DNA of 46,461 bases, from positions 1 through 46,461 of the forward strand of contig CANQKX010000010.1 in the NCBI GenBank assembly GCA_947624565.1, in the 5' to 3' direction. Position numbers and translations under genes: made by a program. This document shows, piece after piece, positions 4,016 to 46,320 of the stretch (positions within the stretch are counted from its first letter, which is position 1; each line of letters begins with the position of its first letter). Under the pieces are notes generated by a model, which ran no database searches, was not told the DNA's origin, and was given only the letters and a program-made list of their open reading frames with translations. The DNA is from an uncultured Bacilli bacterium (lineage in GTDB: Bacteria; Bacillota_I; Bacilli_A; RF39; UBA660).

Positions 4016-4040
4016 ATACTTCACCAGTATATAATATGAA

Positions 4041-20699: not shown

Positions 20700-20715
20700 A
20701 TTATTGGTGAAGATA

Positions 20716-21684
20716 ATGGCTGGAACTATTACACATGCTTATTTTGCATGTGATGTATATGATAAACTTGATAATATTACAAAAAATAATTTATATAAGT
20801 TTAAAGAAAATTTAAAAACTTATGCACAAGGTCATGATATTTTCTTCTTTATTACAAATATAAATAATAAAGAAAAAAATATTGGTAAATATATGCATCA
20901 CAATAAAACTAAAGAATTTTTTATAAATATGATTACATACATATATAATAACAAATTACAATATAACTATGAAATTATATCTTTTTTGTATGGATATATG
21001 TGTCATTATTTTTTGGATTCAACAGTTCATCCTTATGTAACATATAAATCTGGCATATTTAAAAAGAAAAAGAAAGAAACATATAAATATAATTCAAAAC
21101 ATAGTGATATGGAAAGTTATATTGATGCATATATGGTAAAAACTAAAGAAAATATTAATCCAAAAGAATTTAAAGTTTATAATTTTTGCTTTAATATAAA
21201 AATTTCTAAAGAATTATCTACTATGATTGATTATGTATATAAAAAAACATACAACTTTAATAATATATCAACATATATGAAACAAGGTATATTTAATATG
21301 AAAATTTTATATAGAATACTTAGATATGATCCTTTATCAATAAAGAAAAAAGTATATAAATTTGTTGATAAAATATCTCCAAATAATATTAAAAAATTAT
21401 ATCCAATAAGTTATGCATACAATCTAAATAATGATAATTATTATTTAAATTTAGATAAAAAAACATGGTGTCATCCAAGATACAAAGATGAAAAGTATAA
21501 TTATTCATTCTTAGATTTATATGAAATTGCGCTTAATAATTGTGTTAAAGCAATAAATGATGTTAATAAAATATTATACAATAATGATTCGTTAAAAAAA
21601 TTGGATAAAATATTTTTAAATATATCTTTTTCTAGTGGAAAAGATTGTAATGATAAAACAAAAAATAAATATTTTGAATTTTGA
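20716..21684 (+). CDS. Zinc-dependent phospholipase C-like protein
   Basis: ATG 20716 (MAGTITHAYFACDVYDKL) follows GGTGAAGA and fits the family start, in which an early His binds zinc. The 322-residue product has further candidate ligands in AYAQGHDIFFF-like QGHDIFFF, MCHYFLDSTVHPYV (His, Asp, His) and KHSDMESYIDAYM. The family (Zn_dep_PLPC) includes secreted phospholipases, but many short gut-bacterial members lack a signal peptide, as here, and their substrate is unknown. The C-terminal half is Lys/Asn/Tyr-rich and unrecognised. TGA TGA ends the gene, showing TGA is a stop in this organism. Confidence 0.8.
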   Translation: MAGTITHAYFACDVYDKLDNITKNNLYKFKENLKTYAQGHDIFFFITNINNKEKNIGKYMHHNKTKEFFINMITYIYNNKLQYNYEIISFLYGYMCHYFLDSTVHPYVTYKSGIFKKKKKETYKYNSKHSDMESYIDAYMVKTKENINPKEFKVYNFCFNIKISKELSTMIDYVYKKTYNFNNISTYMKQGIFNMKILYRILRYDPLSIKKKVYKFVDKISPNNIKKLYPISYAYNLNNDNYYLNLDKKTWCHPRYKDEKYNYSFLDLYEIALNNCVKAINDVNKILYNNDSLKKLDKIFLNISFSSGKDCNDKTKNKYFEF

Positions 21685-22016: not shown

Positions 22017-24236
22017 TTATTCTTCAAAGAAGAAATCGTCAAAGAAATCATCATAATCAGATGAATCTTCACTACTTTCATCATCTTTCTTATTATTAAC
22101 GGATGTTTCTTTTGTATTACTTTTTTCTTCTGGTTTATCTTTAATTTCAAAGTTTTCAAAATCAACCATATTACTATGAACAACCTCTTCAATTTTAGGT
22201 TCATCGCTTGATGGTTTTTCTTCATAAGTTACATCCTTAATTTCACTATCTTTGGAAACTTCAGTTTCTTCAATATTATTTTTCTTTTCTTCGGCTTCTT
22301 TTTTCTTTCTTTCTTCCTCTTCTTCTTTTTCAAGTTCTGCTATTTTAGCATCTATTTCCTTAATCATTTTATCAATATCCATATTATTATCAATTGGAGG
22401 AAAACCTGGTGGGAATGAACCTCCGCCACCAAATGGACTTCCACCTGCAAAAGGACTTGAGTCAATATTAGAAGAAGTATTTGAATCTAAACCAGCATTT
22501 TTTAACTTTTCTTCTTTCTGTTTTCTTACAAATTCTTTTATATCAAAAGTTTGAATAGGTGTCATTTCTCTTTCAGGATAAATTACATTTTTGCCATAAT
22601 GATCTGTTCCTTTACCAAAACCAAAATCTGTTTCATAATCCTTTTTTAATTTTCCTTTAAAAGGTGGACATCTGTGTTTTATAAGTACAATTTCATTATC
22701 TTTCATTCTTTGAAGTTCTGATATTGTAACTAAAGGTCTTGTTTCTTCTTTTTTGTCTTTACCAACCTTTACAAGTTTATCACCGCATAACTTACTAATT
22801 TCTTCAAGTGCAGCAAGTTCACCTGTTAATAAGTAAATTAAGTTCCCACAGTTACCACGTATTGTTTCAGCATCATGATCTCCATATACCTCTTTTATTT
22901 GTGCAAAATTTTGTATTATAAATAAAAATCTTATTCTTCTTGAACGCGCTGCCGTTACCATTGTAGTTATATCTTTAAATTTAGGCATGTTAGCAAACTC
23001 ATCAAGTAGGAAATTAACTCTAACAGGAAGCGCTCCTCCATGTTTATGAGCAACTGAAATTAATGATTCATAACACTGTTTAACAAATATAGTAGCAAGA
23101 GAGTGATATGTTGTCTTTTCATCTTGTATTATCATAAAAACAGCTGTTGGTTTTTCACCAATTGTATCCATCTCAAAATCATTTTTTGATAACATTTCTG
23201 ATAAATTTTTTGTTACAGCAAGTGTTTTAACTTTTTGTTTTAATACAGATACTATACCACCTTTTGTTTCGTTAGGTGCATTAACTGTACCAAGGGCATT
23301 AACACATGCTGGTGATGCAGGATCTTTTGCATTAAAATATTCTTTCAAATAATTTGACGCTCCATATTTATCTTCGCCAATTGTCATCATTAAATTAATA
23401 CTATTTATATTTATCTCTTCTTCTTTAGCATCTTCAAAAAGTGCAAGAGAAAGCCCTGTTAAATAACTAGATGCAGAATCTTGCCAAAATGGATCATTAC
23501 CTTTTCCATCTACAACTATATTAGTTGATAAATCGTTTAAAAGTTCATTTGCTTTATCAAAATTACCCTCTTTTTGAAATTTATATGGCAAATGATATGG
23601 ATTCCAGCAATTACCTTTTTGCGGATCACGAAAATTTAATATTATAATCTCATATCCAAGTTCTCTAAGTAATCCTGAATTATCTTCAAAAATTTCCCCT
23701 TTAGGGTCAGATACAATAATTGATTCTCTTGCTTTCATAAGCATCTTCATAGTTGGATTAATTATACCTGCTGTTTTACCACTACCAGTTGCACCTAAAA
23801 CTAGTGTATGACTTTCTCCATTATCTACATATGCAGCATCTTTATCATATACCAAAGGTACTCCACCAAATTTTGATTCTTTTTCAATAAATGGTACTCT
23901 TTCCATACCTTTAGCTTTTTTTATTTCACTTTCTTTTGCCCATCTAGAATAACCATCTTCTTTTTTTTCACTAGTATACCCAAATCCTTTTTCTCTAGTA
24001 AAAAAATATGATGTTGTTGTTGTAAACAAAAAGGCTACAGATATAATCCAAAATACTAGTGTTGTAACAATATTTCTTGGAAAAAAAGCTGGAAAAGGAT
24101 TTAATCCCCAAGCAGTACCTTCTTGAAGTATTGATTTAATATTTAATGTACAAACTGCTACTAAGTATAACATAAATAAAGCTACACAAGCAAATGCTAT
24201 TACATCCTTTTTTTCTGCTCTAAATTTTAATTTCAT
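22017..24236 (-). CDS. virD4: VirD4/TraG-type type IV coupling protein
   Basis: ATG 24236 (MKLKFRAEKKD) is preferred because the TGTTATAAT promoter at 24274-24282 places the transcript start downstream of the longer TTG start. The 739-residue protein has two N-terminal membrane segments with a periplasm-side loop, Walker A LVLGATGSGKTAGIINP, Walker B NFLLDEFANMPKF and the TAARSRRIRFLFIIQNFAQI block of VirD4 ATPases. A Gly/Pro linker (SPFAGGSPFGGGG) and coiled coil lead to a long acidic tail ending SDYDDFFDDFFFEE. It recruits substrates to the T4SS channel. It is transcribed separately from the main operon, from which a terminator divides it. Confidence 0.95.
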   Translation of the reverse strand: MKLKFRAEKKDVIAFACVALFMLYLVAVCTLNIKSILQEGTAWGLNPFPAFFPRNIVTTLVFWIISVAFLFTTTTSYFFTREKGFGYTSEKKEDGYSRWAKESEIKKAKGMERVPFIEKESKFGGVPLVYDKDAAYVDNGESHTLVLGATGSGKTAGIINPTMKMLMKARESIIVSDPKGEIFEDNSGLLRELGYEIIILNFRDPQKGNCWNPYHLPYKFQKEGNFDKANELLNDLSTNIVVDGKGNDPFWQDSASSYLTGLSLALFEDAKEEEININSINLMMTIGEDKYGASNYLKEYFNAKDPASPACVNALGTVNAPNETKGGIVSVLKQKVKTLAVTKNLSEMLSKNDFEMDTIGEKPTAVFMIIQDEKTTYHSLATIFVKQCYESLISVAHKHGGALPVRVNFLLDEFANMPKFKDITTMVTAARSRRIRFLFIIQNFAQIKEVYGDHDAETIRGNCGNLIYLLTGELAALEEISKLCGDKLVKVGKDKKEETRPLVTISELQRMKDNEIVLIKHRCPPFKGKLKKDYETDFGFGKGTDHYGKNVIYPEREMTPIQTFDIKEFVRKQKEEKLKNAGLDSNTSSNIDSSPFAGGSPFGGGGSFPPGFPPIDNNMDIDKMIKEIDAKIAELEKEEEEERKKKEAEEKKNNIEETEVSKDSEIKDVTYEEKPSSDEPKIEEVVHSNMVDFENFEIKDKPEEKSNTKETSVNNKKDDESSEDSSDYDDFFDDFFFEE

Positions 24237-24273
24237 AAAATCATCTGCTTTCTTAAGAATAATATACAAAAAT

Positions 24274-24282
24274 ATTATAACA
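24274..24282 (-). promoter_or_regulatory. Promoter of the coupling-protein gene
   Basis: On the minus strand, TGTTATAAT (TGnTATAAT) about 31 bases before the ATG, immediately after the terminator of the T4SS operon. Confidence 0.55.
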
Positions 24283-24310
24283 AAAAAATAAGTATTTTTA
24301 AATACTTATT
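24282..24310 (-). terminator. Terminator of the T4SS operon
   Basis: On the minus strand, AATAAGTATTT and AAATACTTATT form an 11-bp stem with a 2-base loop, followed by six T residues. Confidence 0.8.
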
Positions 24311-24326
24311 TATTACTTATTTAAAT

Positions 24327-27083
24327 TTATGGACAATATGAATAACTATTAGTTACTGCACCATTTACATATCTATCATAAATGTCTTTTGCATTCTTTT
24401 GTCTTGTACGAGTTGTAGCATCGGCAGAGCCCTCATATATATCATGAAATTTATCTGCTGCACATTCTGGACTTGTCGCATTATTTACTATATCAAATAG
24501 TGTAGTTGTAGCTTCTATACCATAATATTCAAGTTGCATACCAAGATCATCAATACCAACTTTTTTTTCATTTTTATAATCATATAATCCTAATTTTCTA
24601 GTATAATATGTCCACTGTGCAATTCCATATCCTCTTTTATCATTACCAAAAGAATCTCTATTTATTGTTCCTGAATTTACTCCATTTGTATAATCTTCAT
24701 CACTATATCCCATACCATTTTGTACATTATTTGGAAGGAAACCTGATTCTTGTTGCCAATTTCCCATAATACCTGCGGCTGCTATTTTAGTATAACCTTT
24801 TGACAATAAATAATTCCATATTTTTTCTTCATTAGTATTACCAACAAGATTTGCCGAAGTATTGCAAGGTATAAATAAATTTGATGGATCAATTGCATTA
24901 TCTTGTGTATAATTACCATTTACAAATTCAAAATGTAAGTATGATTCATTATATCCTGAATTACTACCACCAATAGTTCCTATAGTTTGTCCTTTTGTTA
25001 CATTAGAATTTTTACTTAATTTTATAGAAGAAGGGTTAAGATGTCTATATACAGAAGTAAATTCATATTTGTTTTTTTCATTTAAAACTATTGAATGATT
25101 TATCATAATATATGCTCCTTCAGAGCAAGAATTATCCGTTGAATTTTCACATAAATTTACTTCACTAACAGATCCATCTGCTATAGAATATACATTATTA
25201 CCCTCTACACTTCCAGTTGATGTTTCATTTAAATCTATGCCTTTATGAACTTTACCATCTTTTATTCCAAAAGCACTATTTACATCAAAATTAACATTAA
25301 ATCCTTCTTGTACATCAATAGGCTTAGATAAAGATGAAACTAAATTATTATCAATTGCACCTACACATGAATTTGTATAAGCTTCACTATCCGTATCAAC
25401 ATATTGTAAAAATATATCTTCAAATAATTTTTTATTGTCATAAATATCGTTTATAATTTGTTCTTTTTTTATCTCACGTGCCTCACCTGTAGATGGTAGT
25501 AAATTTTTGAATTCAGGCATACTTTCTATATAATAATTTTTTAAATACTTATTATAATTTCCCTCATCAAATGCAAAATCTCTATATGTAATATATATTG
25601 ATACTAAATTAAAATCACAATTTTGATTTCCATTTTCATCAGTAACACATGTTTTTTGACCATATTCTACACTAACATCAGTTATATCAGATAATCCAAA
25701 AAATACATCATTAATTAACATTGCAACAGTTGAAGCAAAATCAGCAGTGATTAACTTAAGATTTTCAAAATATTCACCTTTATATTTTGAATCTAAAAGA
25801 TCTGCCAAAGCCTCATTAAATGGCATAGCAATTGATGATATGGCTAATGATAAAATATCAGAAAACATATCTTTTATATCATTAGATATATTGGTTGCAT
25901 ACATATCCAAAAATTGTGATAAACTTACTTTTTTTTCTGGACCTTTTCTTTCTGGTACTCCAAATACATTAGTGTAAAATTGATTTCTTGCTAGTTTTCT
26001 TATCCTATATATCTTTCCTACACTATATGCCAAACCATTATCATCAACGGTTTCATTTGCTTCGTCAAATTTCTCACGTAAATACTGTTTTATTGCTGCC
26101 CATATTCCAGAATTGCTTCCAGATAATGATTCATCAATTGCAGAATCATTTTCCATCTCACCGAAATTAGTATCATAACCCATACCTTCAGTATAAAATA
26201 CTGTTGATAAAAGCAATGGTACATCTAGTGATTCACCATATCTCTCACTTAATTTATTTATTTCATCATAAAAAGCTTCTTTCGTATCTTGAAAGCCAAA
26301 ACCATTATAAAAATTAGTAACTTTTTCTGAAAAATCAGCTACCTTTGTTATTTTTTCATCTAAATATCCAAAAGCCTCCATTATTGGTCCTAAAATTAAT
26401 TCTATAACAAAAAATATTAAGATTACTCCCAAAACAAAGGGCAATATGAATGGTACAATCTTTTTAATAACAAATTTTTTTATTGTTTGTTGTGCTTTCA
26501 TCTTTGAGGCTTCAATAGGATGCCTTATTGCAAAGTCTTTTGCTTTCTTGGAATCTTTATTTATCTGTTTTTCCTCATTTTTTAACTTGCTTTCTTGATT
26601 TTTCAAATTTTGTTCTTGTTTCTGTGCTTCTTTATTTTCTTTCTTCGCATCCCTTATTTCTTTATTTGAAACAGAACCTTTATTGTTTGCTCTTCTGCTT
26701 TTTAAATCATTTAATCTTCCTTGTGCAGAATCCCTTTTAATGTTATTATTTTTTTTATCATTTTCTAACTCTTCTTTTTTTTGATTTAATTGATTTTTTT
26801 TCTCATTATAATAATTTTCATTATTTAATTTTCTTCTATAAGCTTCTTTTGCATTATCTGCTTTCTGATAATCTTCACTTTTATTTAGTTTATCAGGTAC
26901 ACTTGATCCATCTGATTGCATATCATTATTTAAGTTATCAGAATCATCCACGTTATTATTTAAATTTTCGTTATTACCTTCTTCATTATTTTGTGATAAA
27001 TTTTGATCTACACGTTCAGAATTTTCATCATCAGATATAAAATCTTTTTCATATTCATCAAAATCCTCTTCTTTATCAGGCAA
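24327..27083 (-). CDS. T4SS wall hydrolase: coiled coil, TM, M23-like and phage-type lysozyme domains
   Basis: TTG 27083 (reads PDKEEDFDEYEKDF) is preferred over GTG 27095, because AGGTGGT lies 7 bases before it. The 918-residue protein has a charged cytoplasmic coiled-coil region (to about 195), a membrane segment (about 208-234), a large extracellular region, an M23-like domain (about 615-745) and a C-terminal tail-lysozyme-type domain (about 760-915). The latter has GIMGNWQQESGF with the catalytic Glu and GYGIAQWT. The M23 part keeps HKGID and YRHLN but has YLHFE where HLHFE is expected. It plays the VirB1/CwlT role of opening peptidoglycan for the channel. Last gene of the operon. Confidence 0.88.
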   Translation of the reverse strand: MPDKEEDFDEYEKDFISDDENSERVDQNLSQNNEEGNNENLNNNVDDSDNLNNDMQSDGSSVPDKLNKSEDYQKADNAKEAYRRKLNNENYYNEKKNQLNQKKEELENDKKNNNIKRDSAQGRLNDLKSRRANNKGSVSNKEIRDAKKENKEAQKQEQNLKNQESKLKNEEKQINKDSKKAKDFAIRHPIEASKMKAQQTIKKFVIKKIVPFILPFVLGVILIFFVIELILGPIMEAFGYLDEKITKVADFSEKVTNFYNGFGFQDTKEAFYDEINKLSERYGESLDVPLLLSTVFYTEGMGYDTNFGEMENDSAIDESLSGSNSGIWAAIKQYLREKFDEANETVDDNGLAYSVGKIYRIRKLARNQFYTNVFGVPERKGPEKKVSLSQFLDMYATNISNDIKDMFSDILSLAISSIAMPFNEALADLLDSKYKGEYFENLKLITADFASTVAMLINDVFFGLSDITDVSVEYGQKTCVTDENGNQNCDFNLVSIYITYRDFAFDEGNYNKYLKNYYIESMPEFKNLLPSTGEAREIKKEQIINDIYDNKKLFEDIFLQYVDTDSEAYTNSCVGAIDNNLVSSLSKPIDVQEGFNVNFDVNSAFGIKDGKVHKGIDLNETSTGSVEGNNVYSIADGSVSEVNLCENSTDNSCSEGAYIMINHSIVLNEKNKYEFTSVYRHLNPSSIKLSKNSNVTKGQTIGTIGGSNSGYNESYLHFEFVNGNYTQDNAIDPSNLFIPCNTSANLVGNTNEEKIWNYLLSKGYTKIAAAGIMGNWQQESGFLPNNVQNGMGYSDEDYTNGVNSGTINRDSFGNDKRGYGIAQWTYYTRKLGLYDYKNEKKVGIDDLGMQLEYYGIEATTTLFDIVNNATSPECAADKFHDIYEGSADATTRTRQKNAKDIYDRYVNGAVTNSYSYCP

Positions 27084-27114
27084 ATTTATCACCACCTAAC
27101 TACATTTATATTTT

Positions 27115-28905
27115 TTATAATCCACCTTTTGAGCCAAATGAATCAAGTTCTGCATCGGTTGCTATTACACTTATTTGCATACGTTTGCTACCACATACAA
27201 ATAATGCATCTCCTTGATTATATCTTTTTATTCCTTCTTTTTCATTATCGTTTAGATCTATTAATTTTGATAAATCTTCAACTGCTTGTTTTTTTAATCC
27301 CATTACAAGATAATATGATGCATTATCAAATATTGCTTTACCTTGCATTAATACTTCTTGAGCGGCAAAATCACTTGGTTGTTGAGTAATTATTATTGTT
27401 CCAGAATTATACTTACGAGCTCTTCTTTGTACATTTGCCAAGAAATCTGCTCCTAATGCATTGTTATTTCCTAAAAGGGTATGTGCTTCATCAACTTGTA
27501 ATATTGTATTTGTTGTCGGATCAAGACATAATCCCCAAGCATATTTTAATATATTAAAGAATAACGCATTTTTAATATTTGCCTCCGCATTCATAAGTTC
27601 TCTTATATTAAATACGATAAAATTAGATTTAGGAGATATTGTTGTATGTCCATCAAAATAATGTTCCAAACCTCCAAAAGTTAAAGGTCTAATCTTAATC
27701 TCAAGTCTTTCCATTATATCTCTTTCTCTTGTTGCTTCTCCATAAGATAATATTCTTCCTTTTATAGTTGTATAAACATCACTAAATGTTGGAAAATCAC
27801 CTGAAGTTAATTTATTAAAATCTGTATTTATATTTATTCCAAATCTTTGATATGTTTCAACTACAACTTCATTAAATAAAGTTAATACGTCTTCTTCAAT
27901 AGATGGATCATAATACTTCATAAAAGCCTTAAGAGTTTGAAGTGTTTTAGTTAAAACAGAATATCCTACACCTCTATTTGATTCTTCGTCATCAGAATCT
28001 GGAACTATTTCTAATGGATTAATCATTCCAAATTCTCCTCCACGACCAAGATCAATAAAATCTCCATTATATAATTTTGTCATTTCTTCAAGTTCACCTT
28101 CAGGATCAAGTGCTACTATTTTATAACCATTTCTAATATGCGTTCTTAATAATAATTTTGCAGCAGTTGATTTACCTGAACCAGATGTACCTAAAATTAT
28201 CATGTTAGCGTTATTTCTATTATGTTCTTTTTTTATTTGATATAAAAACTGATTAAATAATATAATACCTCCAGAAAAATCCACTCCAAGTAAACAAGAT
28301 AAACCTTGATCTTTTATACTATCAAATACAAAAGGATACATAGCAGCAAGTGTAGGAGATGGAATTGGAGTACCAATTCGATCTTCAATATCCTGTTTAT
28401 CAAATATTGGCAAACAAGATTTTAATACTTTTTCTTGTTCAAATCTAAGAGGAATAGCTCTCATCTCCATTGATTCTAATACAGATTTAACCTGTACTTT
28501 AGTTCTTTCAAGTTCTTCTTTACTATCAGCAGTTATCATAATGTGAAGTTGAAAATCAAATACTTTAGATTGATTAGTTGTTATTACTTTTATAAAATCT
28601 TCCAAAGAATCATAATCTTGTCTTATTCTTTCTTGATATGTTGGATCAGATTCTTTTTGATATTGTTCATTTAATTCAAGTAATTGTTTATTAAGCATCT
28701 TAGCAACTATTTCGAATGAAACAGGTATATGTTTAGCAACTATTTTAACACCAGATAATCCAGATGTTAAATTAGACAAATATCCAGGTGATATCAATTT
28801 TGGATAAGATACTACAGTTAATATAGTTGCATACTTGTCACTAATAACAAAATCAGTTGAATTAAAAGTCATACCTTTAGGGGCTAATTCCTTTTTAATC
28901 GCCAT
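27115..28905 (-). CDS. virB4: VirB4/TrsE-type T4SS motor ATPase
   Basis: ATG 28905 (MAIKKELAPKGM) follows GGTGAT; the TTG at 28911 has no site. The 596-residue protein begins with the LAPKGMTFNSTDFVISDKYA block usual in Gram-positive VirB4 proteins. It then has Walker A ILGTSGSGKSTAAKLL, ALDPEGELEEM, Walker B ILQVDEAHTLL and the GTIIITQQPSDF sensor. It powers pilus assembly and substrate transfer at the inner face of the membrane. It overlaps the preceding gene by 11 bases in another frame, implying coupled translation. Length is normal, so it is not a fragment. Confidence 0.96.
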   Translation of the reverse strand: MAIKKELAPKGMTFNSTDFVISDKYATILTVVSYPKLISPGYLSNLTSGLSGVKIVAKHIPVSFEIVAKMLNKQLLELNEQYQKESDPTYQERIRQDYDSLEDFIKVITTNQSKVFDFQLHIMITADSKEELERTKVQVKSVLESMEMRAIPLRFEQEKVLKSCLPIFDKQDIEDRIGTPIPSPTLAAMYPFVFDSIKDQGLSCLLGVDFSGGIILFNQFLYQIKKEHNRNNANMIILGTSGSGKSTAAKLLLRTHIRNGYKIVALDPEGELEEMTKLYNGDFIDLGRGGEFGMINPLEIVPDSDDEESNRGVGYSVLTKTLQTLKAFMKYYDPSIEEDVLTLFNEVVVETYQRFGININTDFNKLTSGDFPTFSDVYTTIKGRILSYGEATRERDIMERLEIKIRPLTFGGLEHYFDGHTTISPKSNFIVFNIRELMNAEANIKNALFFNILKYAWGLCLDPTTNTILQVDEAHTLLGNNNALGADFLANVQRRARKYNSGTIIITQQPSDFAAQEVLMQGKAIFDNASYYLVMGLKKQAVEDLSKLIDLNDNEKEGIKRYNQGDALFVCGSKRMQISVIATDAELDSFGSKGGL

Positions 28906-29443
28906 TAACAATCACCGTCCTACTTGAATAATTTACTCCCCCATTTAAGAAATTATCTAAAATCATTCTCAAATCTTCATTTGATACTTGAGAGGCAATT
29001 AAATTGCATTGTGCTAAATTATTTATTAAATTTCTTACTTTCTTTTGTAACATATCAGTACTTGTTTCTTTAAATAAAATAAAATATTCCGTATCAACAA
29101 CACCATTATTCATAAACATTTCTGCCTTATTAATATCATCAACAATCAATTTTCTATATACTGGACTAGTAGTATCATTTAATTGAAGTTGAAGTTGAGA
29201 TATATATAATCCAACATCAACAGGTCTATCTGCAACTAAAAGCCAAAATTCATAGTCTATCAAATTATAAAAAGTTTTTAGGGAATCTATTATACTATTT
29301 TGATAGTTTTCCTCCAATATAAATATATTTCTTGGTTGTATCTTAACTCCAGTAACCATTTGTTTATTATCAAGAAATATTATATTATTATTTATGTTTT
29401 TTACAGATATCCAATTTTCAGTATAAACACTATTTGAATTCAT
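28895..29443 (-). CDS. TrsD-like T4SS protein
   Basis: ATG 29443 (MNSNSVYTENWISV) is the likeliest start; a longer frame from 29485 overlaps the PrgI-like gene by 56 bases and has no site. The 182-residue soluble protein contains MVTGVKIQPRNIFILEE, DYEFWLLVADRPVDVGLYIS and a TEYFILFKETS strand. That layout resembles the N-terminal VirB4-like proteins called TrsD that precede VirB4 in Gram-positive transfer operons (order PrgI, TrsD, VirB4). Identity rests on gene order and general pattern. It probably contacts VirB4 at the membrane. Confidence 0.7.
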   Translation of the reverse strand: MNSNSVYTENWISVKNINNNIIFLDNKQMVTGVKIQPRNIFILEENYQNSIIDSLKTFYNLIDYEFWLLVADRPVDVGLYISQLQLQLNDTTSPVYRKLIVDDINKAEMFMNNGVVDTEYFILFKETSTDMLQKKVRNLINNLAQCNLIASQVSNEDLRMILDNFLNGGVNYSSRTVIVNGD

Positions 29444-29738
29444 CTTTATAACACCAACCCTTCCATTTATAATTTCTTCTTCCATAAAAGAAATCTATCA
29501 TTTCCTTTATTACTGTGAGCACATTATGATAATTTGGTATAGGAATAACTAGAAATCCACTTATAAGTAAAGGAGAAAGACATATAATTGCAACTGTAAG
29601 ATTTTCTGGTCCTATTATTATCAATAGTAATAAAGTTACAACAATTCCAATACTAAGCAATATAATATCAAATTTCGTAAACATTCCAAATATAAGTTTA
29701 CCTTTTTTTGAATTAGCGGGTATTAAGTATTGATTCAT
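29430..29738 (-). CDS. PrgI-family T4SS membrane protein
   Basis: The 102-residue product has two adjacent membrane segments (about 25-45 and 47-68), a VIPIPNYHN motif, and the RRNYKWKGW C-terminus typical of PrgI-type proteins that replace VirB3 in Gram-positive systems. AAGGAG precedes ATG 29738. Its end overlaps the TrsD-like gene by 14 bases, consistent with coupled translation within the operon. Confidence 0.8.
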   Translation of the reverse strand: MNQYLIPANSKKGKLIFGMFTKFDIILLSIGIVVTLLLLIIIGPENLTVAIICLSPLLISGFLVIPIPNYHNVLTVIKEMIDFFYGRRNYKWKGWCYKDEFK

Positions 29739-29756
29739 TTTATATCACACTCCTTT

Positions 29757-32345
29757 TTATTCATTATCATCTTGTCCATTATTTTTATTTAAGTCTTCAT
29801 TCATTCTTTTTATATTACTATTAACTTTATCCATACTATCATTTATGTTATTAATTCCTGAATTAATATTTCTAAGATTTTTATTTTGCGTTTGATTCTC
29901 TGATAATATGTTTTGTTGAGCTTTTAACTGATCATTTAAAATTTTATTAGTTTCTTTATTAGTATCTTGTATTGTTTTAGATATTTCATCAAAATACTGT
30001 GACATGTTAGACATATCTACATTAACATTTTGTTGTGCATTTGATCCAGTATTATTTGAATTTGTCTGTGAATCATTGGTATTTTGTCCACCCTGTGATC
30101 CATTAGTATTTTGTCCACCCTGTGAACCACTAGTATTTTGTCCATCCTGAGATCCATTAGTATTTTGTCCACCTTGTGAACCACTAGTATTTTGTCCATC
30201 CTGAGATCCATTAGTATTTGACGTTTGAGCAGTATATTTATAATGATCTTTACTTGTTTCTTGAATTTTCCTTGAGTATTCAGAATTTAATTCATCAAAT
30301 GTAGCATTTATTACATCTGCTTCTTCTTTACTCTTTGCACTTTGTGAAGCTATTTTTGATATTTGTGCATCATATTCTGCTTTAACATTATCAGCATATT
30401 TTTCTGATTTACCAGCAACTATACCAAGATTTGTTACATTTAATTTTGCTTTACCATCTGCATCTGTTGTCATGAAATTCATACCACCTGCTTGTTGATC
30501 GATAAAATTTTTAAATTCTGAAATTCCTGATGCCGTTTCATTAATACTATATAATTTACTTGCATTTGAAGCAATTTTTGATGCTGAAAATCCTCCAATT
30601 TCTCCATGATCTGCCATTTCATTTAATTTTGATACTATATCATCTAAAGACATATTACCACTTTTATAACCAGTTTTTAGTTCCATCAATCTCTTTTGTA
30701 AAGCTTCATTACCTTGTGCATTTGCAATCATAGTATCAAATTCATTATTAATATTATCGTTAGCATCCTTAGCTTTTGACATAATTGCTTTGACTAAATC
30801 TGCACTGGCTCTTTTTTTCAATATATCTTTATCTTTTTTAGATATATTCATATTTTCAATATCATCAACTAAATTTTTGAATCCTCCTATTGCGCTTTCT
30901 AAAGTATTATCGTTCAATGCTCCAGATTCATTTAATCCTGCACGTTCTCTTTTTTTATTTTTCTTATTAGCACTAATAACTTGTTGCATAGCTTTACCAT
31001 AGTCACTATCTTTATAAGATTTAACTGCTTTTGGTATTGCTGTAATTGGATTACCCTCTGAAAATCCTTTTAACACAGATCCAGCTGTTTTTCCTGCTGT
31101 AGAAACTGCTCTACCTGCTGTTCTTAATCCACTTGCAACTTTTCCTCCTGTTAGTCTATTTGCTCCTAAACCTACAGCTGCTCCTAGTGCTGCTGGTACT
31201 GCTAATCCTGCTGCACCCATTCCGATTAATCCTGCATTTCTTATACCTTTCCATGCTTGTTGAGCATACTTACCTGCTACTGCCATTTCACCAAGTCTAC
31301 CTTCAATACCACCTTTTGATTGAAGATTAGTTCCAAATACTTTATTAACAAAATCAGGGATTTGTTTTATAAAAATTAACATGCCTATTATCAAAAGTAC
31401 AGCCAAAAATCCCTTGTCGATAAATCCAAAATTATCAATTCCTTTAGTGTCATCAAAAACTCTATCCAAAAAGCCATCTAAATTAGCAACTAAAAATATA
31501 AAAAATGCTAAACAAGCTATTCTAACAAAAACATCAACAAAAGTTTTTCCTAATTCTTGTCCCCACTTTTTTATTATACTATCCCCAACTGACATATAAG
31601 ATACAACTATTATAGGTGTTGTTAATTCTAAAAATGCCAATTTAAATATTCTTACAGCCACATCCATAGAAAATATTATAAGCAAATAACAGCACATTAT
31701 TCCCGCTATTATAGCGATTAATCCATCAAATAAAAATGCATAATTTTCTTTTTTAGTAAACATTTTTTCGTTTGTAGTTCCATCCTTTGTTACATTTATA
31801 TCATATTTCATATCATCTATTCTTTTAATATCATTGACAACCATTTCATAATATTCATCAGAAACATCTTCATTTACCGTAACATCGTCACCATCTGGTT
31901 TTAAAACAGAAGAAATTAAAGTACCTGCTATTACTTGCCCACCATTTCCACCATTATTATCGGTAAAATTTACTCCCACAACAATTTTTTCAATTAAATT
32001 ATTAGAAATTACGCTATCTTGTATTTCATATGCCTTATCAAACGCAAAAGGAATTAACACTATCAATGCTAATCCTATAATTGCCCTTTTAAACATTGAG
32101 CCCACACCTTTTTTCTTATCAGTTAAAAGATCTGGATTTGCAATTGCTGCTAAGATGTTAGCAGAAAAAGCAAATAACATTACAACACTAATTAATACAT
32201 AAATATTTGAACTAATACTTTTAATTGTATCTTCTTCAAAAAATCTATGACTACTTAAAACATAAAATATATTATATATTTGTGGTATTAATTTATATAT
32301 AGGCGCACACAAAAATATTGCAAGTTTTCTCAATAATCCACTCAT
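29757..32345 (-). CDS. VirB6/TrbL-like polytopic T4SS membrane protein with repeat tail
   Basis: The 862-residue protein has about seven membrane segments in its first 335 residues, including the VirB6-like FLELTTPIIVVSYMSVGDS and LDGFLDRVFDD regions. A Gly/Ala-rich stretch (about 345-420) follows, then a soluble, helical cytoplasmic or extracellular half. Around residues 715-775 it carries tandem NTNGSQDGQ / NTSGSQGGQ nonapeptide repeats, then a coiled coil to the end. VirB6 proteins form the channel platform. GGAGG precedes ATG 32345, 9 bases after the pilin-fusion gene. The Mycoplasma ICE transmembrane protein type has a similar layout. Confidence 0.85.
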   Translation of the reverse strand: MSGLLRKLAIFLCAPIYKLIPQIYNIFYVLSSHRFFEEDTIKSISSNIYVLISVVMLFAFSANILAAIANPDLLTDKKKGVGSMFKRAIIGLALIVLIPFAFDKAYEIQDSVISNNLIEKIVVGVNFTDNNGGNGGQVIAGTLISSVLKPDGDDVTVNEDVSDEYYEMVVNDIKRIDDMKYDINVTKDGTTNEKMFTKKENYAFLFDGLIAIIAGIMCCYLLIIFSMDVAVRIFKLAFLELTTPIIVVSYMSVGDSIIKKWGQELGKTFVDVFVRIACLAFFIFLVANLDGFLDRVFDDTKGIDNFGFIDKGFLAVLLIIGMLIFIKQIPDFVNKVFGTNLQSKGGIEGRLGEMAVAGKYAQQAWKGIRNAGLIGMGAAGLAVPAALGAAVGLGANRLTGGKVASGLRTAGRAVSTAGKTAGSVLKGFSEGNPITAIPKAVKSYKDSDYGKAMQQVISANKKNKKRERAGLNESGALNDNTLESAIGGFKNLVDDIENMNISKKDKDILKKRASADLVKAIMSKAKDANDNINNEFDTMIANAQGNEALQKRLMELKTGYKSGNMSLDDIVSKLNEMADHGEIGGFSASKIASNASKLYSINETASGISEFKNFIDQQAGGMNFMTTDADGKAKLNVTNLGIVAGKSEKYADNVKAEYDAQISKIASQSAKSKEEADVINATFDELNSEYSRKIQETSKDHYKYTAQTSNTNGSQDGQNTSGSQGGQNTNGSQDGQNTSGSQGGQNTNGSQGGQNTNDSQTNSNNTGSNAQQNVNVDMSNMSQYFDEISKTIQDTNKETNKILNDQLKAQQNILSENQTQNKNLRNINSGINNINDSMDKVNSNIKRMNEDLNKNNGQDDNE
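30060..30220 (-). repeat. 27-bp tandem repeat (minisatellite) in the VirB6-like gene
   Basis: About six tandem copies of a 27-base unit encode NTNGSQDGQ or NTSGSQGGQ. Units alternate between two slightly different versions, which suggests duplication of a two-unit block. In frame, so copy changes keep the reading frame. Confidence 0.85.
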
Positions 32346-32354
32346 GTTTACCTC

Positions 32355-34046
32355 CTATTTACCATTTATAACGCATCTCATTAAATTTGCGTCCCCTCCA
32401 GATATATCTAATATTATACTTACAATAGTTGGAACGGCAACAAATAAAACAAGTAATAATAATCTTTTAGGGAATTTCTTTTTTGACTCTTCCATCTTTT
32501 TTTCATCAGAAGCAAATACTGCCATACCATAATCTACAACTCCAAATAATATTACTATAATCGGTGCTGAAATTCTTAAAATATTATACAAAGTATGGAA
32601 TATTGCAACATCATCACAATTAGCTTTGTAAGGACCAAATTCAACACCTGAAAGATTAATATTTATTTCTTTAAGAGTCTCTTTCATATCATCAAGGGAA
32701 TCAGATATTTCAGAATCATAGTTTTCTTGTAAAATATTATATTTTTCAACTAAACTATTGTAATTTTGTTCACCATAATTTTCTTTCATACAACCTGTAA
32801 AACATGAATCAGTTGATGTTTTTTCACATTTTTCTAGACATTGATTGCGTGATTTTGTACATAAATTTACTGCTGTTCCTGTAAGACAACTGTTATATGC
32901 TGGCGTATCTTTATAATCGTAGCAAATTGCATTACATATATTGTTTTGATATGAATATTTTTGATCAACATTTTTATTTCCTTTTTCACGAGAATTTAAA
33001 AGTTCCCTAATTAATCTAACATGTCTGCCTCCGTCAAGCTGAATATGTGAAAATTCATAAAATTTATAAAAATCAGAAAAATCATTTATATCATCGTTTG
33101 AAGTAAGAACTAACCAATCAACCAATCTAAACCAATCCTCAAATGAACTTTGCATAAATTTTGCATTAATTACAGAATTATAGCAGGTTTCTGTTGGTAT
33201 TTGTGATGAATATTTACTATATGGTGCAGCATTGTTTTCTTGCAATAAATCTGGAAAAACATCTTTATCAATTAAATCTAAGTAAGCTTTCCTATTTTCT
33301 GTATTTTTATTTTCATATGTTGAACAATTCGATGCTAAATCCGAATACACTTGATCAATCGCTTTAGACCACATATTTTTCGTTTGATTATAAAATTCTT
33401 GTTTATAATGTTCTGTTTTACCTTTATCTGCTAAACCAGTCAAGGCTTCTTCAAATTCCTTTGCTACCTCTTCATCAAAGATATCTAACTTTAATTTTGT
33501 TTTATATGATGTTTTTACATTTGAAAAACAAATTGAATTAGATATTGCATTATCATTATCATCTGCTTTTATATTAAAATTTGAATCTAAAGTTCCAGAA
33601 TAAGATACAGAAGAATAACTTTCATTTACTACCTTACCATTATATTGAGTCTTTAAATAATTTTTATAATCATTTATATCAGCTCGCAACGCAACATAAT
33701 CACCTGCAATAGCAATAGCTTTTTTGTAATATGCAACCCCTATATATTTAGGACATTCAGGAGAATTATAAATTTCATCTTGAATAACAGTATCAGCAAA
33801 TTTTTTATCAGAACGAGATAATTTAAATTTATAACCCGTAGTATCAAATGTTAATTTATATGTTAAAGTATTACCAGTATATGTTCTAACAGGCATATAT
33901 CTATTAGTACTACTATCATAGTAAAGACCAGACTCATATGTATACCACGTACAAGAATCCACAGCAGCAACACTTTTTATATTTGCAAAAGATACAAAAA
34001 ATACAAAAACAACAATTAAAATTGTACTAATTTTTTTATGTTTCAT
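32355..34046 (-). CDS. Secreted Cys-rich ectodomain fused to a pilin-like two-TM domain
   Basis: The 563-residue protein starts with a clear signal peptide (about 1-29, ending SVAA). A large extracellular domain follows, with a Cys-rich cluster near residues 370-430: CNAIC, later CLEKC and CFTGC (CX3C pairs), eight Cys in about 45 residues. The last 80 residues are two membrane segments flanking ASDEKKMEESKKKFPKRLL, which closely match the small pilin-like protein at 34135 (about 25 of 59 positions identical by eye). GGTGAAAC precedes ATG 34046. It is in the main T4SS operon. Role inferred: an extracellular pilus tip or channel component built on a VirB2-like membrane anchor. Confidence 0.8.
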   Translation of the reverse strand: MKHKKISTILIVVFVFFVSFANIKSVAAVDSCTWYTYESGLYYDSSTNRYMPVRTYTGNTLTYKLTFDTTGYKFKLSRSDKKFADTVIQDEIYNSPECPKYIGVAYYKKAIAIAGDYVALRADINDYKNYLKTQYNGKVVNESYSSVSYSGTLDSNFNIKADDNDNAISNSICFSNVKTSYKTKLKLDIFDEEVAKEFEEALTGLADKGKTEHYKQEFYNQTKNMWSKAIDQVYSDLASNCSTYENKNTENRKAYLDLIDKDVFPDLLQENNAAPYSKYSSQIPTETCYNSVINAKFMQSSFEDWFRLVDWLVLTSNDDINDFSDFYKFYEFSHIQLDGGRHVRLIRELLNSREKGNKNVDQKYSYQNNICNAICYDYKDTPAYNSCLTGTAVNLCTKSRNQCLEKCEKTSTDSCFTGCMKENYGEQNYNSLVEKYNILQENYDSEISDSLDDMKETLKEININLSGVEFGPYKANCDDVAIFHTLYNILRISAPIIVILFGVVDYGMAVFASDEKKMEESKKKFPKRLLLLVLFVAVPTIVSIILDISGGDANLMRCVINGK

Positions 34047-34084
34047 GTTTCACCACTCTCATACTATTATGATAACATAAATAA

Positions 34085-34118
34085 GAAAAAAAAGAAATAC
34101 ATAACGCATTCTTTTTTC
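34085..34118 (-). terminator. Partial terminator between the pilin gene and the rest of the T4SS operon
   Basis: On the minus strand, AAAAAAGAA and TTCTTTTTT form a 9-bp A/T stem with a 12-base loop and T tract. No promoter of comparable quality follows before 34046, so it probably allows read-through and keeps the first gene more highly expressed. Confidence 0.45.
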
Positions 34119-34134
34119 CTAAACAAATTAATTA

Positions 34135-34491
34135 CTATTCTAAATCACCTGATGCATCAAATGCTTCAAATTTACCATTTGCTGCATTCCAACAATTTTT
34201 CCATTCATTATTATTAGTTGTAACAAGATTCATAACTAAATTAACAATAAATGGTATTATAAATACTATTACAGCTGCTACAATTCTTTTTACGAATGGT
34301 TTTTGTGCTTCTTTTATTTTCTTTTCATCACCAGCAATTACTGCTTTACCCATATCAACTGTACCCATTAAAATTAATCCCATTGGAATTACAATTTGTA
34401 AAATCTTTATTACTGTTCTAACTAAAGTAAGTACATTTAATAATTGACTATCTTGTGGGCATAAACTTTCTGCGCTATCTAAAAACATCAT
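34135..34491 (-). CDS. Small pilin-like T4SS protein (VirB2/TrbC or Mbov_0395 type)
   Basis: The 118-residue product has no cleavable signal by eye. Two membrane segments (about 25-45 and 70-92) flank the cytoplasmic loop AGDEKKIKEAQKPFVKRI. A C-terminal Cys and Trp-containing tail (WKNCWNAANG) follows. This two-helix hairpin with a KxxKEAQKxFxKR loop matches VirB2-type pilin-like proteins of low-GC Gram-positive and Mycoplasma elements. AGGAGG precedes ATG 34491, and it is the first gene after a near-consensus promoter. As pilin it should be the most abundant product of the locus. Confidence 0.8.
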   Translation of the reverse strand: MMFLDSAESLCPQDSQLLNVLTLVRTVIKILQIVIPMGLILMGTVDMGKAVIAGDEKKIKEAQKPFVKRIVAAVIVFIIPFIVNLVMNLVTTNNNEWKNCWNAANGKFEAFDASGDLE

Positions 34492-34586: not shown

Positions 34587-34614
34587 AGAAAGAATTTTAT
34601 TCAAAATTCTTTCT
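34587..34614 (-). terminator. Terminator of the giant surface-protein gene
   Basis: On the minus strand, AGAAAGAATTTT and AAAATTCTTTCT form a 12-bp stem with a 4-base loop that contains the final codons and stop of the gene, followed by a short T-rich stretch. Confidence 0.7.
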
Positions 34615-37600
34615 CTGTTTCATAACCATGAATAATAATGAAATGATTACTAGTATTAGTATAGCCATTACAATATATCCTGATCTTACAAATCCTGTCT
34701 GTATTGTTATTATAAGTTCTGCTATTGCTGTTGCTATTACTTTTGATTTTTCTTGATTTATATTGTTTCTTATTTTTCCAACTATATTACCATCTTCTAA
34801 TATACTGAATTGTATTTCTTTATTATCTGATGATACAACTTTATAATTTCCTGTTGGTAAATTATTTATATATAGTCTTCCTCTTACTGTTCTCATTTCG
34901 TCTTCTTTATTTCCTATTGTATATCTTCCTATTTCTTCTTCTTTCTTCATCTTCATTAATTCATAATTATCATTGTTTTCTTTATATAATTTATATGTTT
35001 CATCTGATGATAAACTACTTCCATCTTCCATTTCATATACAATTATATTTTTTACATTTGTTTCTATATTTAATGCTTCTTTTATTAAATTTGTTATATT
35101 TGCTAATATTCCTGTTGGTAAACCTTCTGCTATTTCATCTAAAGTTCCATTTTTTACAAAGTCAAATTCTCCTTTATTTAATGTATGTCCATTTAAATAT
35201 AACTTTATTATTTTTCTTTCTGGTACTACTATATTTTCTGTAAATGTTATATTTGTATATAATATTACATTTGTTTCAACATCATCTGGAGCTGAATTTA
35301 TTGCTTCTTGTAATGATTTAAAGTTTAATCCATTTACTGATGCTACTCTTTCCTCTTCTCCTATCAATGTCAATGTTGCGTTTTTCATATCATCTTTATC
35401 TTGCAATAATATTTTATATCCTGGTTCTCCAACTGTTATTTCTCCTGAAAATGCTGCTTGTCTTCCATTAATTGATCCATCATAGAAATTTACTGTACCA
35501 GTTGTATTATTTATACCATATATTTCACCTGTTATACTTGGTAAACTTGTATCTACTGGAATACCTTTTTCACCAATATTTACTGTCCCTGTTGAACATA
35601 TACCATATGAAGATGATTCTATTGTTCCTCCTAATATATTAAATGTACCAGTACTATTAATACCACATTTACTGGTTTCAGATGATGTACCTATAATTTT
35701 TCCTCCTGTCATAGTTCCTGATCCATTTAACCCAGTAGCGCCTTGTATTGTTCCTGATGAAATATTTATTTTTGATCCAGATACTCCTGTTCCTCTATCA
35801 GAAATAATTTTACCACCTGTTATATTAACTTCACCATCTAAACTTTGTATTCCGTTTTTATAAAATTCTTTTATTTCTCCTTCAGACATTTCTATTGTTC
35901 CTGTTGATTCATTATAGATTCCAGTATCATCAGTTTTTATTTCTCCTCCAGACATTATTACTTTTCCTTCTGAGGCATTGTATATTCCATAACTTGATCC
36001 ACTTATTATACCACTAGACATCTCTACTACTCCTGTTGAATTATTATAAATACCATAACGTGATACTAGTGATAAGTTTTTTATTTCTCCTCCAGACATT
36101 ATTACTTTTCCTGTTGAAAAATTATGTATTCCATAATAAATTGAAAATATTATACCATTAGACATTTCTATTGTTCCTGTTGAGGCGTTATAGATTCCAG
36201 TATCATTAGATTTTATTTCTCCTTCAGACATTATTACCTTTCCTTCTGAGGCATTGTGTATTCCATAAGAGCTGCTAGTTATTGTTCCTCCAGACAACTT
36301 TATCGTTCCATTTTTTTTATTGCTTATCCCTGTTGAGGCATGTATTGTACCATTAGAAACTTCTATTGTTCCTGATGAGTTATTTTGCACTCCAATTGTT
36401 GATGCAGTTATTTTTCCATCAGAAAATAGTAATTTTTTTATAGAATAATTATCAATAGCTATACTAACATTTGAAGTAATATTAACATTTTCTATCTTTA
36501 TTTCTTCATTATTTTTTAGTGTTATTTGACTTGATTCAATTATATTTTCTGTTGACTTGTCATTGATAAATTCTATCACACCATTATTAACAAAATATGT
36601 ACCTCTTAAATATGAATGTATATTATGACCATTTAAATCAAGTATTATATTCTTATCATTTGTTATCTGTCTAACCGTATATATATCTTTTAATAATTTT
36701 ATTGTTTTTTGCGTTTCGTTTCCTTCAATACTATTTATTGCATCTTGTAATGTATCATATTCTTGATCATCTATTGATGCAACATTAGATGATTTTGATA
36801 ATGTCATTGTCTCATTACTTTGTGTTTTTTCTATATTTATATCATAATTATCAGGTACTTTGGATATTACACTTCCTACTTGAATTGAGGCATTTTTTGA
36901 TATAAATGTTCCATCATAATAGTTTATTATTCCTGTTGTATATGATTGTATACCTGTATTTGATTTTATTAATGGGCTATCATTGTTAACATCATCATTT
37001 ACACCTATATTTATTGTCCCTGTTGAACATATACCAAATGAAGACGATTCTATTGTTCCTCCTAATATATTAAATGTACCATTACTACTAATACCACAAC
37101 TATCCGATTTGACAGTTCCAGCAGTCATAGTTCCTGATCCATATACTTCACCTTGTATTGTTCCTCCTGAAATATTTATATTTGATCCATATACTTCACC
37201 CTGTATTGTTCCTCCTGATATTTCTATTATACCAGATGACTTATTATAAATTCCATTTTGAGAATCCTTTATTTCACCGTTAGACATTTCTATTGTTCCT
37301 GTTGAGGCATTATATATACCATCAGTAGACGACTTTATTTCTCCTCCAAACATTTTTATTATTCCTGTTGAGGCATTGTATATTCCATAACGCGATTCAC
37401 TTATTGTACCACTAGACATTTCTATTGTTCCTGTTGAGGCATTATATATACCATAAGAATTAGATAAATTTCCTACAATTGTTCCTCCAGATAATTTTAC
37501 TGTTTTTATTGAATTATTATAAATTCCATAATTAAATATTTTCATTGTTCCGTTAGACATTTCTATTGTTCCATTATTAAACACAATATAACTATCTATA

Positions 37601-40600
37601 TTAATATTATTATAAGTTCCACCTGATATTTTTAATGTTCCATCATTTTCAATCAACTTACTAGATGATATTCCTGCTTCAATAGTACCATCATTAGTAA
37701 TTTCAAAAATACCATTGTTCTTAAATAGAATTTCTTTTTTCGAATTAATGCTATGATTTGATAAATCCAATTTTATATTTTTATCCTTTGTAATATTTAT
37801 AGTTTCTTCACTATCTAATACTATAAAATCTCTTAATAATTGTATTGTTTCTTGATTTTCATCATCAACAGCATTTATTGCAGCTTGCAAAGAATAATAT
37901 TCTTGACCTGTTGAAACAATTTTTGCAACATTTTCCTTCTTCAAATACGCAGATTCAGTATCATCATTTTTTTCGATATAGATTGAATATCCTTCTTCTA
38001 TTTGCATTTTTCCGTAAGTAGAATTATCAATAGGCCCTCTTAACACACCATCATAGAAATTAACAATTCCGTTACTTGCATTATAAACACCATTCTTCTT
38101 ACCTGATATATCTGGTAAATCTATATTTACTGGTTCACCTTGTATTCCAATATTTATTGTTCCTGTTACCTTGTTATATATTCCATATTCTGATGAATCT
38201 ATTGTTCCTCCTGATATTTCTATTGTCCCTGTCGAATTATTATAGATTCCATTTTGAGACTCTTTTATTTCTCCATTAGACATTTTTATTATTCCTGCTG
38301 CTTGATTATATATTCCATATGAAGTTTTAATTATTTTTCCATTAGACATTTCTATTGTCCCTGTTGTATTATTTTTTATTCCATATATAGATGACTGTAT
38401 TATTCCTCCAGACATCCTTATTGTCCCTGTTGCTCCATTTTCTATACCTGTTGAAGCATTTATTGTACCACTAGACATTTCTATTGTCCCAGAAACATTA
38501 GATATACCTGTTTGTTGATTATAAGGAGTTTTTATTTCTCCTCCTGATAAATAAATTATCCCGGAAACATTACGTATACCAGACGAAGAGTTATTTCTTC
38601 CAGTTATAGTAATAGTTCCTCCAGACATTTCTACTATTCCTTCTGACTCATTATTTATTCCGTAATACTGGGAATTTATATCTCCTTTAGATATTTCTAT
38701 TGTCCCAGATGACTTATTATATATTCCATAATTAAAATTATCTATTGTTCCCCCTGATAATGTTATTGTTCCATTTAAATTATTATATATTCCATAATCA
38801 GTCATCCCAGGTACTTTTTGTGATGGTGTTATAATTTCATCTGATATTTCTATCGATCCTGTTGATTTATTATTTATACCATAAATAACTGCATTTATTG
38901 TTCCATTAGATATTAGTAAATCTTTTGTAGAATTATTATCTATAGCAGTTGCATATGAAGTAATATTAACATTATTTATCTTCATTCCGTCATTATTTGC
39001 TAGTGTTAATTTACTTGATTCAATTATATTTTCTGTTGACTTGTCATTTGTAAGTTCTATTACGCCATTATTAACAAAATATGTATCTCCTAAATATGTA
39101 TGTATATTATAACCATTTAAATCAAGTATTATATTCTTATCATTTGTTATCTGTCTAACTGTATATATATCTTTTAATAATTTTATAGTTTTTTGTGTAT
39201 TGCTTTCTTCAATACTATTTATTGCATTTTGCAATGTATTATATTTTTGTTCATCTATTGATGCAACATCAGATGGTTTTGATAATGTCATTACTTCATT
39301 ATCTGCTGATTTTTGAATATCAAGATCATAATTATCAGGTACTTTGGATATTGTGCCGCCTTTTTCAATTGAATTATTTAATGAACTTGTAAATACTCCA
39401 TCATAATAATTTATTATTCCTTCTCCCTTTTTTATACCTATATTCGATTTTATTGATGGACTACTATTATTAACTATATCACCATTTTCTCCAATATTCA
39501 TTATTCTATTACTATCAGAACATATACCATATGTAGATGATTCTATTGCCCCACCTAATATATTAAATGTACCATTACTACTAATACCACAATCACTACT
39601 TAAAGATGATGTTGCTTTAACAGTTCCACCGTTCATAGTTCCTGATCCACTTACTCCAGTCGTACCTTGTATTGTTCCAGATGAAATATTTATATTTGAT
39701 CCTGATACTCCAACTCCTTTATTAGATATAATTTTACCACCTGTTATATCAACTTTACCAGATCTACCAAGAATTGCATTGTTATTAGACGTTATTGTCC
39801 CATCAGATACTATTATTACACCTGTTAAACCATTTTCCATTCCATAACTAGAAGAGTTTATAGTTCCTCCTGATATTTCTATTGTTCCTGTTGATTCATT
39901 ATATATACCTGTAGTGGATGTTTTTATATTTATATCATTTAAAACCACATTTTTTTCTGATTTATTATATATACCATATTTTTTTGAATTTATAACTGTT
40001 TCTTTTTTAGATGTTATAATACCATAATTTTCAACTGCAGAACCATCTATGTAATTGGATTCTAATTTACCACTTGTTAAATTTAATGTGCCTGTTTCAT
40101 TGTTCAAAATTACTGTTGATGTTGTACTATTTATATTTCCTCTTGAATCTTCTCCATTATATTTAGTATCAATTATAGTTAATATACCATCATTTTTTAT
40201 TGTATAATCATTTATATTTGTAGTTAATGCATATCCATTTAAATCTAATATAACGTTTCTTAGTTTTTCAATATTTAACGATTCATTTAAGGATATATCT
40301 CTTAAAATTTGAACTGTATCAGCCTCTTCGTTTAACTTTGGAAGTAAACCTTCATACTTTGGATAAGTTTCTGTAGAATCGATTTCATCTAAATATTCAA
40401 GATCAAGGGTTATATCAAATGCATCTTTAGAAGTCTCCGTTACTTCATTAGAATTTTGTTTATAATATGCAAATTGTAAATAATATACTTTACCTGCCTT
40501 CAACGTTTTTGCTATAGAATTGTTTTCCTGACTATAACTGCTTTTTGAAAGTATAAGTTCGTTTTTATCATATGAACCATATGAGTCATAACTATTGTAA

Positions 40601-46281: not shown

Positions 46282-46320
46282 ATACATAACTCCTATTTTA
46301 ATCTACTATATTTTATTTTT

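Follow-up and report, generated by a model that had tools for sequence, protein, structure and literature searches.

Uncultured gut Bacilli of the GTDB order RF39 carry a chromosomal type IV secretion system (T4SS) that is resident in the order and inherited vertically. We consider it probable that this machine derives from a conjugation system of Bacilli, has shed its relaxase and mobility genes, and serves contact-dependent protein export. Several features of the sequences point in this direction: the system occurs almost throughout the order with its gene order and site conserved, VirB4 distances agree with those of ParB, the ATPases are under purifying selection, no relaxase was found, the VirD4 tip is confined to the resident proteins, and over most of the order the operon is linked to Tad genes. 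The window, i.e., the whole stretch of 46,461 nucleotides analysed here, is the entire contig G000:C10 of a 1.06 Mb RF39 genome that is 94% complete. Eight open reading frames at 22,017-34,491, every one on the minus strand as the initial annotation had stated, encode a monoderm T4SS.

From high to low coordinates, the operon encodes a short pilin, a long pilin, VirB6, a PrgI/VirB3-like protein, a VirB4 split into a TrsD-like protein and an ATPase, a wall hydrolase and VirD4. The short VirB2-like pilin (34,135-34,491; 118 aa) matches PF18895 at the gathering cut-off. The long pilin (32,355-34,046) has a signal peptide, a fast-evolving ectodomain and a C-terminal VirB2-like hairpin, and over 83 aa its C-terminus shares 35% identity with the short pilin (E 1e-16). 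Its predicted structure has a mean pLDDT of 46, with the helical hairpin at residues 477-548 as the sole usable part. The VirB6/TrbL-like polytopic membrane protein (29,757-32,345; 862 aa) was assigned from weak profile matches and topology. A 27-nt tandem repeat at 30,043-30,221, encoding a GSQxGQNT-type repeat, lies in its long hydrophilic C-terminal region. The PrgI/VirB3-like protein (29,430-29,738; 102 aa) has no Pfam match and was assigned from its position, its two transmembrane helices and its conservation in relatives.

The TrsD-like protein (28,895-29,485; 196 aa) and the VirB4 ATPase (27,115-28,911; 598 aa; Walker A GTSGSGKS) cover residues 98-280 and 295-891, respectively, of the 894-residue VirB4 model NF045975. 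The two reading frames thus tile one model and represent a single VirB4 divided into an N-terminal domain and a C-terminal catalytic part. The ATPase also matches P-loop_TraG (2.6e-11) and the Mbov_0397-type VirB4 model (1.9e-107). The VirB1-like wall hydrolase (24,327-27,095; 922 aa) contains a charged cytoplasmic region, one transmembrane helix, an M23 peptidase domain and a phage-type lysozyme domain (Phage_lysozyme2), the latter two found by profile. The VirD4-type coupling ATPase (22,017-24,269; 750 aa) belongs to the CD1115 family (PF02534, 8.5e-60; NCBIfam CD1115 family, 313 bits, above the model cut-off). It has two N-terminal transmembrane helices, the Walker A motif GATGSGKT and an acidic disordered tail of about 200 aa, which ends in the tip DDFFDDFFFEE (22,020-22,052, minus strand). 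The Walker A motifs are therefore kept in both ATPases, and the VirB4 and VirD4 ATPases together with VirB6-, VirB3- and VirB1-type parts place the system among the monoderm (MPF_FA/FATA-like) T4SSs.

The profiles and the pilin comparison bear out the initial annotation for the coupling ATPase, VirB4, the wall hydrolase, the VirB6-like protein and the two pilin-like proteins. The TrsD-like and PrgI-like genes that it listed are both present, but the former is the N-terminal part of VirB4 and the latter lacks a Pfam match. Its description of the system as complete-looking is slightly generous, because no VirB8-like protein was recognized by profile in the window operon. The proposal that the operon has promoters and terminators of its own found no support, since promoter-like sites (113 against 120 expected) and terminator-like sites (2 against 2.6) were no more frequent than in shuffled sequence.

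Next to the short pilin gene lies a minus-strand gene (34,597-46,287) for a surface protein of 3896 aa, with an N-terminal signal or transmembrane segment, six Listeria-Bacteroides (Flg_new) repeats and a C-terminal transmembrane helix. No LPxTG motif is present near its end (terminus ...IQTGF-hydrophobic-KQRKNFE), and no clustered counterpart occupies the same position in the congeners mapped. The protein is a possible adhesin partner of the adjoining T4SS, although its membership in the system is uncertain. The contig ends 174 bp past this gene, at 46,461. On the other side of the operon, between parA and virD4, a plus-strand gene (20,704-21,684) encodes a zinc-dependent phospholipase C-like protein, and it stays beside parA in congeners.

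The closest named relatives of the window genome are uncultured gut genomes of Bacilli, Erysipelotrichaceae and Tenericutes, including Candidatus Faecisoma and Candidatus Pelethosoma; Faecisoma was placed by its authors in family CAG-822 of GTDB order RF39 (PMC8035907). The window is assigned to RF39 on the strength of these relatives. RF39 genomes are reduced and auxotrophic, without the pathways for fatty acids, amino acids and vitamins (PMC6784871); a peptidoglycan wall is predicted for most of them (PMC10868615). At a threshold of E at most 1e-100, VirB4 (65-91% identity) was detected in 216 of the 241 sampled RF39 genomes, nearly always as a single copy. Within the family, VirB4 at 65-91% identity was found in nearly 50 of 58 sampled relatives, and identity to VirB4 from other families of the class is at most about 31%. 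The order of the core genes is identical in the 80 loci fetched, as far as their contigs extend. In G022, VirD4 and the Tad ATPase do not share a contig with VirB4 (G022:C10 and C14), which suggests a further rearrangement of the locus. We asked whether genomes with no VirB4 match have truly lost the gene, and part of these cases had to be rejected: the G008 contig breaks off within PrgI, and VirD4 with its tip is still encoded in G018 and G021. For G043, a genome that is 98% complete, the missing cluster appears to be a genuine loss. Because some RF39 genomes such as this one seem truly to lack it, the cluster is not indispensable. In the open-licence full-text literature we found no paper on an RF39 T4SS; an earlier report elsewhere is possible.

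The operon occupies a conserved chromosomal site. In the common RF39 arrangement, surface-protein genes, sometimes with a sortase gene, are followed by a Tad operon and then by the genes for the pilins, VirB6, PrgI, TrsD, VirB4, hydrolase, VirD4, a rhodanese, a VTT/DedA protein and rmuC. Among the 52 loci with at least 9.5 kb of downstream sequence, the downstream neighbour is the rhodanese gene in 43 and parA in one. The initial annotation had placed the operon in normally conserved, origin-proximal territory next to parA. Synteny across the order does reveal a conserved site, but it is the rhodanese-VTT-rmuC site, and parA is not the ancestral context: adjacency to parA was seen in the window and in G006 only, so that origin-proximal conservation by way of parA had to be abandoned. 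The congener G004 has the operon at the rhodanese-VTT-rmuC site, flanked by the rhodanese gene and the uracil-DNA-glycosylase gene. In the window and in G006 these two genes are adjacent, and the operon is found about 18 kb away, beside parA. This indicates that the parA neighbourhood results from a recent local relocation, which left the ancestral neighbours rmuC, VTT/DedA and rhodanese behind at 2,038-4,072 (minus strand).

The divergence of VirB4 follows that of ParB. Congruence with ParA had been suggested as a check; run with ParB distances from 19 genomes, it gave a Mantel r of 0.72 (p = 1e-4), and the correlation was 0.83 (p = 1e-4) for the 13 genomes outside the window genus and its sister. 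In a VirB4 tree that includes plasmid and integrative and conjugative element (ICE) sequences, the resident proteins form one clade with bootstrap 100 and a long stem, and the ICE VirB4s of the same genomes fall outside it. Between congeners, dN/dS was 0.06-0.16 for VirB4 and 0.08-0.30 for VirD4, values that are rough because synonymous sites are far diverged. The hydrolase, VirB6 and the pilins evolve fast, as exposed parts do. Occurrence, order, site and ParB congruence agree with the initial annotation that the machine is resident and vertically kept.

No relaxase accompanies the resident system in the families searched. Profiles for the four families PF03432, MobA_MobL, Rep_trans and NCBIfam MobP3 were all negative in the window genome; a relaxase of another class (MOBC, MOBV, MOBM or tyrosine-recombinase-like) may still be present. 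MobP2/MobP3 and MOBP profiles matched nothing in the reading frames of the 80 resident loci and 27 flanking stretches, and the same profiles were positive on ICE and plasmid controls. In genomes of the same bacterial family, relaxases were found within about 10 kb of second, divergent VirB4s, on the same contigs. Such ICE-like loci with their own VirB4 and relaxase (G010:C5, G010:C6, G006:C20, G015:C32, G026:C6, G055:C10 and G032:C37) are a built-in positive control for the absence of a relaxase from the resident loci. No relaxase or integrase was recognized among those proteins of the window that were scanned, in line with the initial annotation. The window contig has no tyrosine recombinase (the three of the genome lie on C2, C4 and C7), and the flanks of the locus contain no att-like repeat and no tRNA gene, the right side being limited by the contig end. 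The proposed search for relaxases and att repeats thus came out in favour of residency; with a distribution that is neither patchy nor discordant with phylogeny, the locus is very unlikely to be an ordinary ICE.

In most other RF39 genera, CpaB, TadA, TadB, TadC and pilin genes adjoin the T4SS. The Tad operon of relatives encodes DUF5411, CpaB, TadA, TadB, TadC, small pilins and a TadZ-like protein, of which TadB, TadC and the TadZ-like protein have no profile match and were assigned from gene order and sequence features. Where the Tad ATPase and VirB4 share a contig (14 genomes of the family), they are 9-13 kb apart in 13 genomes and 42 kb apart in the remaining one. The Tad ATPase scores highest with VirB11 and conjugation-associated TadA models. 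In the window genus no TadA-class match was obtained (the window genome has a PilB-type ATPase on C12 and otherwise weak matches only), and the Tad operon is lost there. MobP3 or MobP2 relaxases are present on conjugative plasmids of Bacilli that combine a CD1115-family VirD4 with VirB4 and genes of the CpaF type. The ancestor is best read as a conjugation system of Bacilli of the kind whose VirD4 belongs to the CD1115 family and which often includes a Tad-pilus module, and in the simplest history such a combined system would have been domesticated and lost its relaxase. Tad-like genes accompany T4SS genes elsewhere as well. In a different Bacilli family, TadA/TadC-like genes directly precede VirB6, PrgI and VirB4, with ArdC and a DNA methylase nearby (G063:C17), apparently a Tad-T4SS mobile element, with no evident VirD4 within 32 kb. 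The cold-seep Mycoplasmatota plasmid CP074574.1 has genes for VirB4, CpaF and a type II secretion F (TadC-like) protein, and no VirD4 or relaxase is annotated within the stretch examined.

In 67 of 68 resident VirD4s the extreme C-terminus is TDDQFFDDFFxD, the order-wide form of the tip, and it follows a tail of 121-303 residues after the ATPase core, a disordered linker rich in E, K, N and P. Mean identity among the resident proteins is 93% for the tip, 36% for the aligned linker and 66% for the core. The tip is absent from the conjugative VirD4s examined, i.e., ICE VirD4s of the same family and four plasmid VirD4s. We also considered whether FFDDFF might mark other proteins across the genome and rejected this idea: the FFDDFF-coding pattern occurs once in the window genome, inside VirD4, and the other DNA pattern matches examined either do not read as FFDDFF in frame or fall within frames that are short or unrelated. 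Other coupling proteins use their C-terminal tails for recruitment: that of Legionella DotL brings in adaptors, those of TrwB/TraD relaxosome proteins (PMC12857230, PMC7434980). We therefore propose that the VirD4 tip may be a dock for a substrate or adaptor. Just upstream of the pilin gene, G006 additionally encodes a 336-aa VirD4-like ATPase (L168:12355-13365) that has no counterpart of the N-terminal part of the resident VirD4 and shares 35% identity with its residues 149-431.

A relaxase-free machine that nearly all RF39 inherit as an ordinary chromosomal cluster has probably been turned to another job, such as the passage of proteins to neighbours. The pilins on the surface would hold a neighbouring cell jointly with Tad pili or with large surface proteins, and the wall hydrolase would open the cell's own peptidoglycan. 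The flexible tail of VirD4 and its invariant DDxFFDDFF tip might capture protein substrates or an adaptor, and VirB4 with VirB6/VirB3 would then pass the captured proteins out. For a wall-bearing auxotroph, the likely gain would be that effectors are delivered to neighbouring gut cells by contact, or that these cells are exploited, as has been proposed for Patescibacteria. Judged from the genes, protein export appears to be the most likely function and DNA export its main rival. Several points weigh against the main reading: neither an effector nor an adaptor or secretion signal was identified, no VirB8-like part was recognized, some RF39 genomes do without the cluster, a relaxase outside the four families may exist (three tyrosine recombinases are encoded elsewhere in the genome), and VirB4 is nearest to the model from mycoplasma ICEs, a minimal-machine system for DNA transfer. 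The match to the mycoplasma model favours a resident DNA-export machine that, like mycoplasma ICEs or the gonococcal island, transfers chromosomal DNA from cell to cell, with a non-canonical or trans-encoded nicking enzyme. Mycoplasma ICEs mobilize large chromosomal segments (PMC12857230), and acidic VirD4 tails can bind relaxosome proteins too (PMC7434980). However, the relaxase families tested are absent from the genome and from the 80 locus neighbourhoods, and the fixed site is not that of an element; we regard DNA export as unlikely, if still to be reckoned with.

A channel turned to the uptake of DNA or nutrients by an auxotrophic, epibiont-like cell would suit the missing biosynthetic pathways of RF39 (PMC6784871), and uptake is also one of the proposals made for the T4SS of Patescibacteria (PMC12857230). 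The purifying selection on VirD4 and its conserved tip point instead to the export of captured substrates, and no partner for uptake was identified, which makes this improbable. Still less probable is a helper machine kept for mobilizing relaxase-bearing integrative and mobilizable elements or plasmids that have no channel of their own. Relaxase genes do occur in some RF39 genomes, but several adjoin their own VirB4, and the system is retained in the window genome, which has no mobile relaxases of the families tested. Moreover, the low dN/dS and the retention of the system across the order indicate that the cell itself benefits. An ordinary or decayed ICE beside parA, finally, seems very improbable: the core genes all descend from conjugation genes and the locus has moved within the genus, but it has no relaxase, integrase or att repeats, and near-universal occurrence (216 of 241 genomes), the common site, congruence with ParB and purifying selection contradict it.

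A 2025 review treats it as a long-standing open question whether T4SSs of Gram-positive bacteria have become dedicated effector translocators, and the cases it cites are the 89K system of Streptococcus suis and the systems of Patescibacteria (PMC12857230). RF39, a common uncultured gut order, adds a second large lineage in which a relaxase-free system is kept vertically. The VirD4 tip provides a concrete molecular handle, and RF39 genomes with or without the cluster, and with or without Tad, form a natural comparison set. The T4SS may also help to explain how these auxotrophs live off their neighbours. More tentatively, the RF39 system could be a dedicated protein translocator, order-wide and contact-dependent, a domesticated conjugation T4SS joined to a Tad pilus with substrates docking on VirD4 by the invariant DDxFFDDFF, and so the second lineage-defining T4SS in a reduced-genome group after that of Patescibacteria, probably of independent origin.

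The Patescibacteria T4SS is likewise relaxase-free, chromosomal and lineage-wide, has several VirB2-like pilins (PMC12102498), and is essential for epibiotic growth in Southlakia epibionticum (PMC12857230); RF39, Bacilli and Tad are not mentioned in the former paper. Both systems are monoderm, belong to reduced-genome lineages and have VirD4 and VirB2-like pilins (several in many RF39 loci), and some members lie near the origin. In contrast, the RF39 system belongs to Bacilli, is usually joined to Tad and has the DDxFFDDFF tip. This likeness is one of shared traits, the VirB4 tree covering RF39, plasmid and ICE sequences. The Tad-carrying plasmids of Exiguobacterium (pEYLC1.2, NZ_CP082335) and Paenibacillus larvae (NZ_CP019656) share with RF39 a CD1115-family VirD4, VirB4, a VirB6-like protein, a hydrolase and a CpaF-type Tad module, but they carry MobP3/MobP2 relaxases, their VirB4s are only 28-29% identical and their VirD4s have no tip. 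The mycoplasma ICE T4SS (Mbov_0395-0397) provides the best curated VirB4 model and related VirB6 models; it is mobile, however, its VirB4 is one gene where that of RF39 is split, and hydrolase and Tad genes are absent from the stretch examined. As in the Trs systems of the pGO1/pSK41 type, where TrsD lies beside TrsE, a small TrsD-like gene directly precedes the VirB4 ATPase gene in RF39. The same order is annotated on Lactococcus pAF22 and a Mesobacillus plasmid, but these two TrsD-bearing plasmids are distant in the VirB4 tree, and pAF22 has a MobQ relaxase. The IncI and PAPI-1 T4SSs, which work with a type IV pilus (PMC12857230), resemble the RF39 arrangement in that a machine of the type IV-pilus family operates with VirB4 and VirD4; they are Gram-negative and conjugative, and the likeness is one of description, not of sequence.
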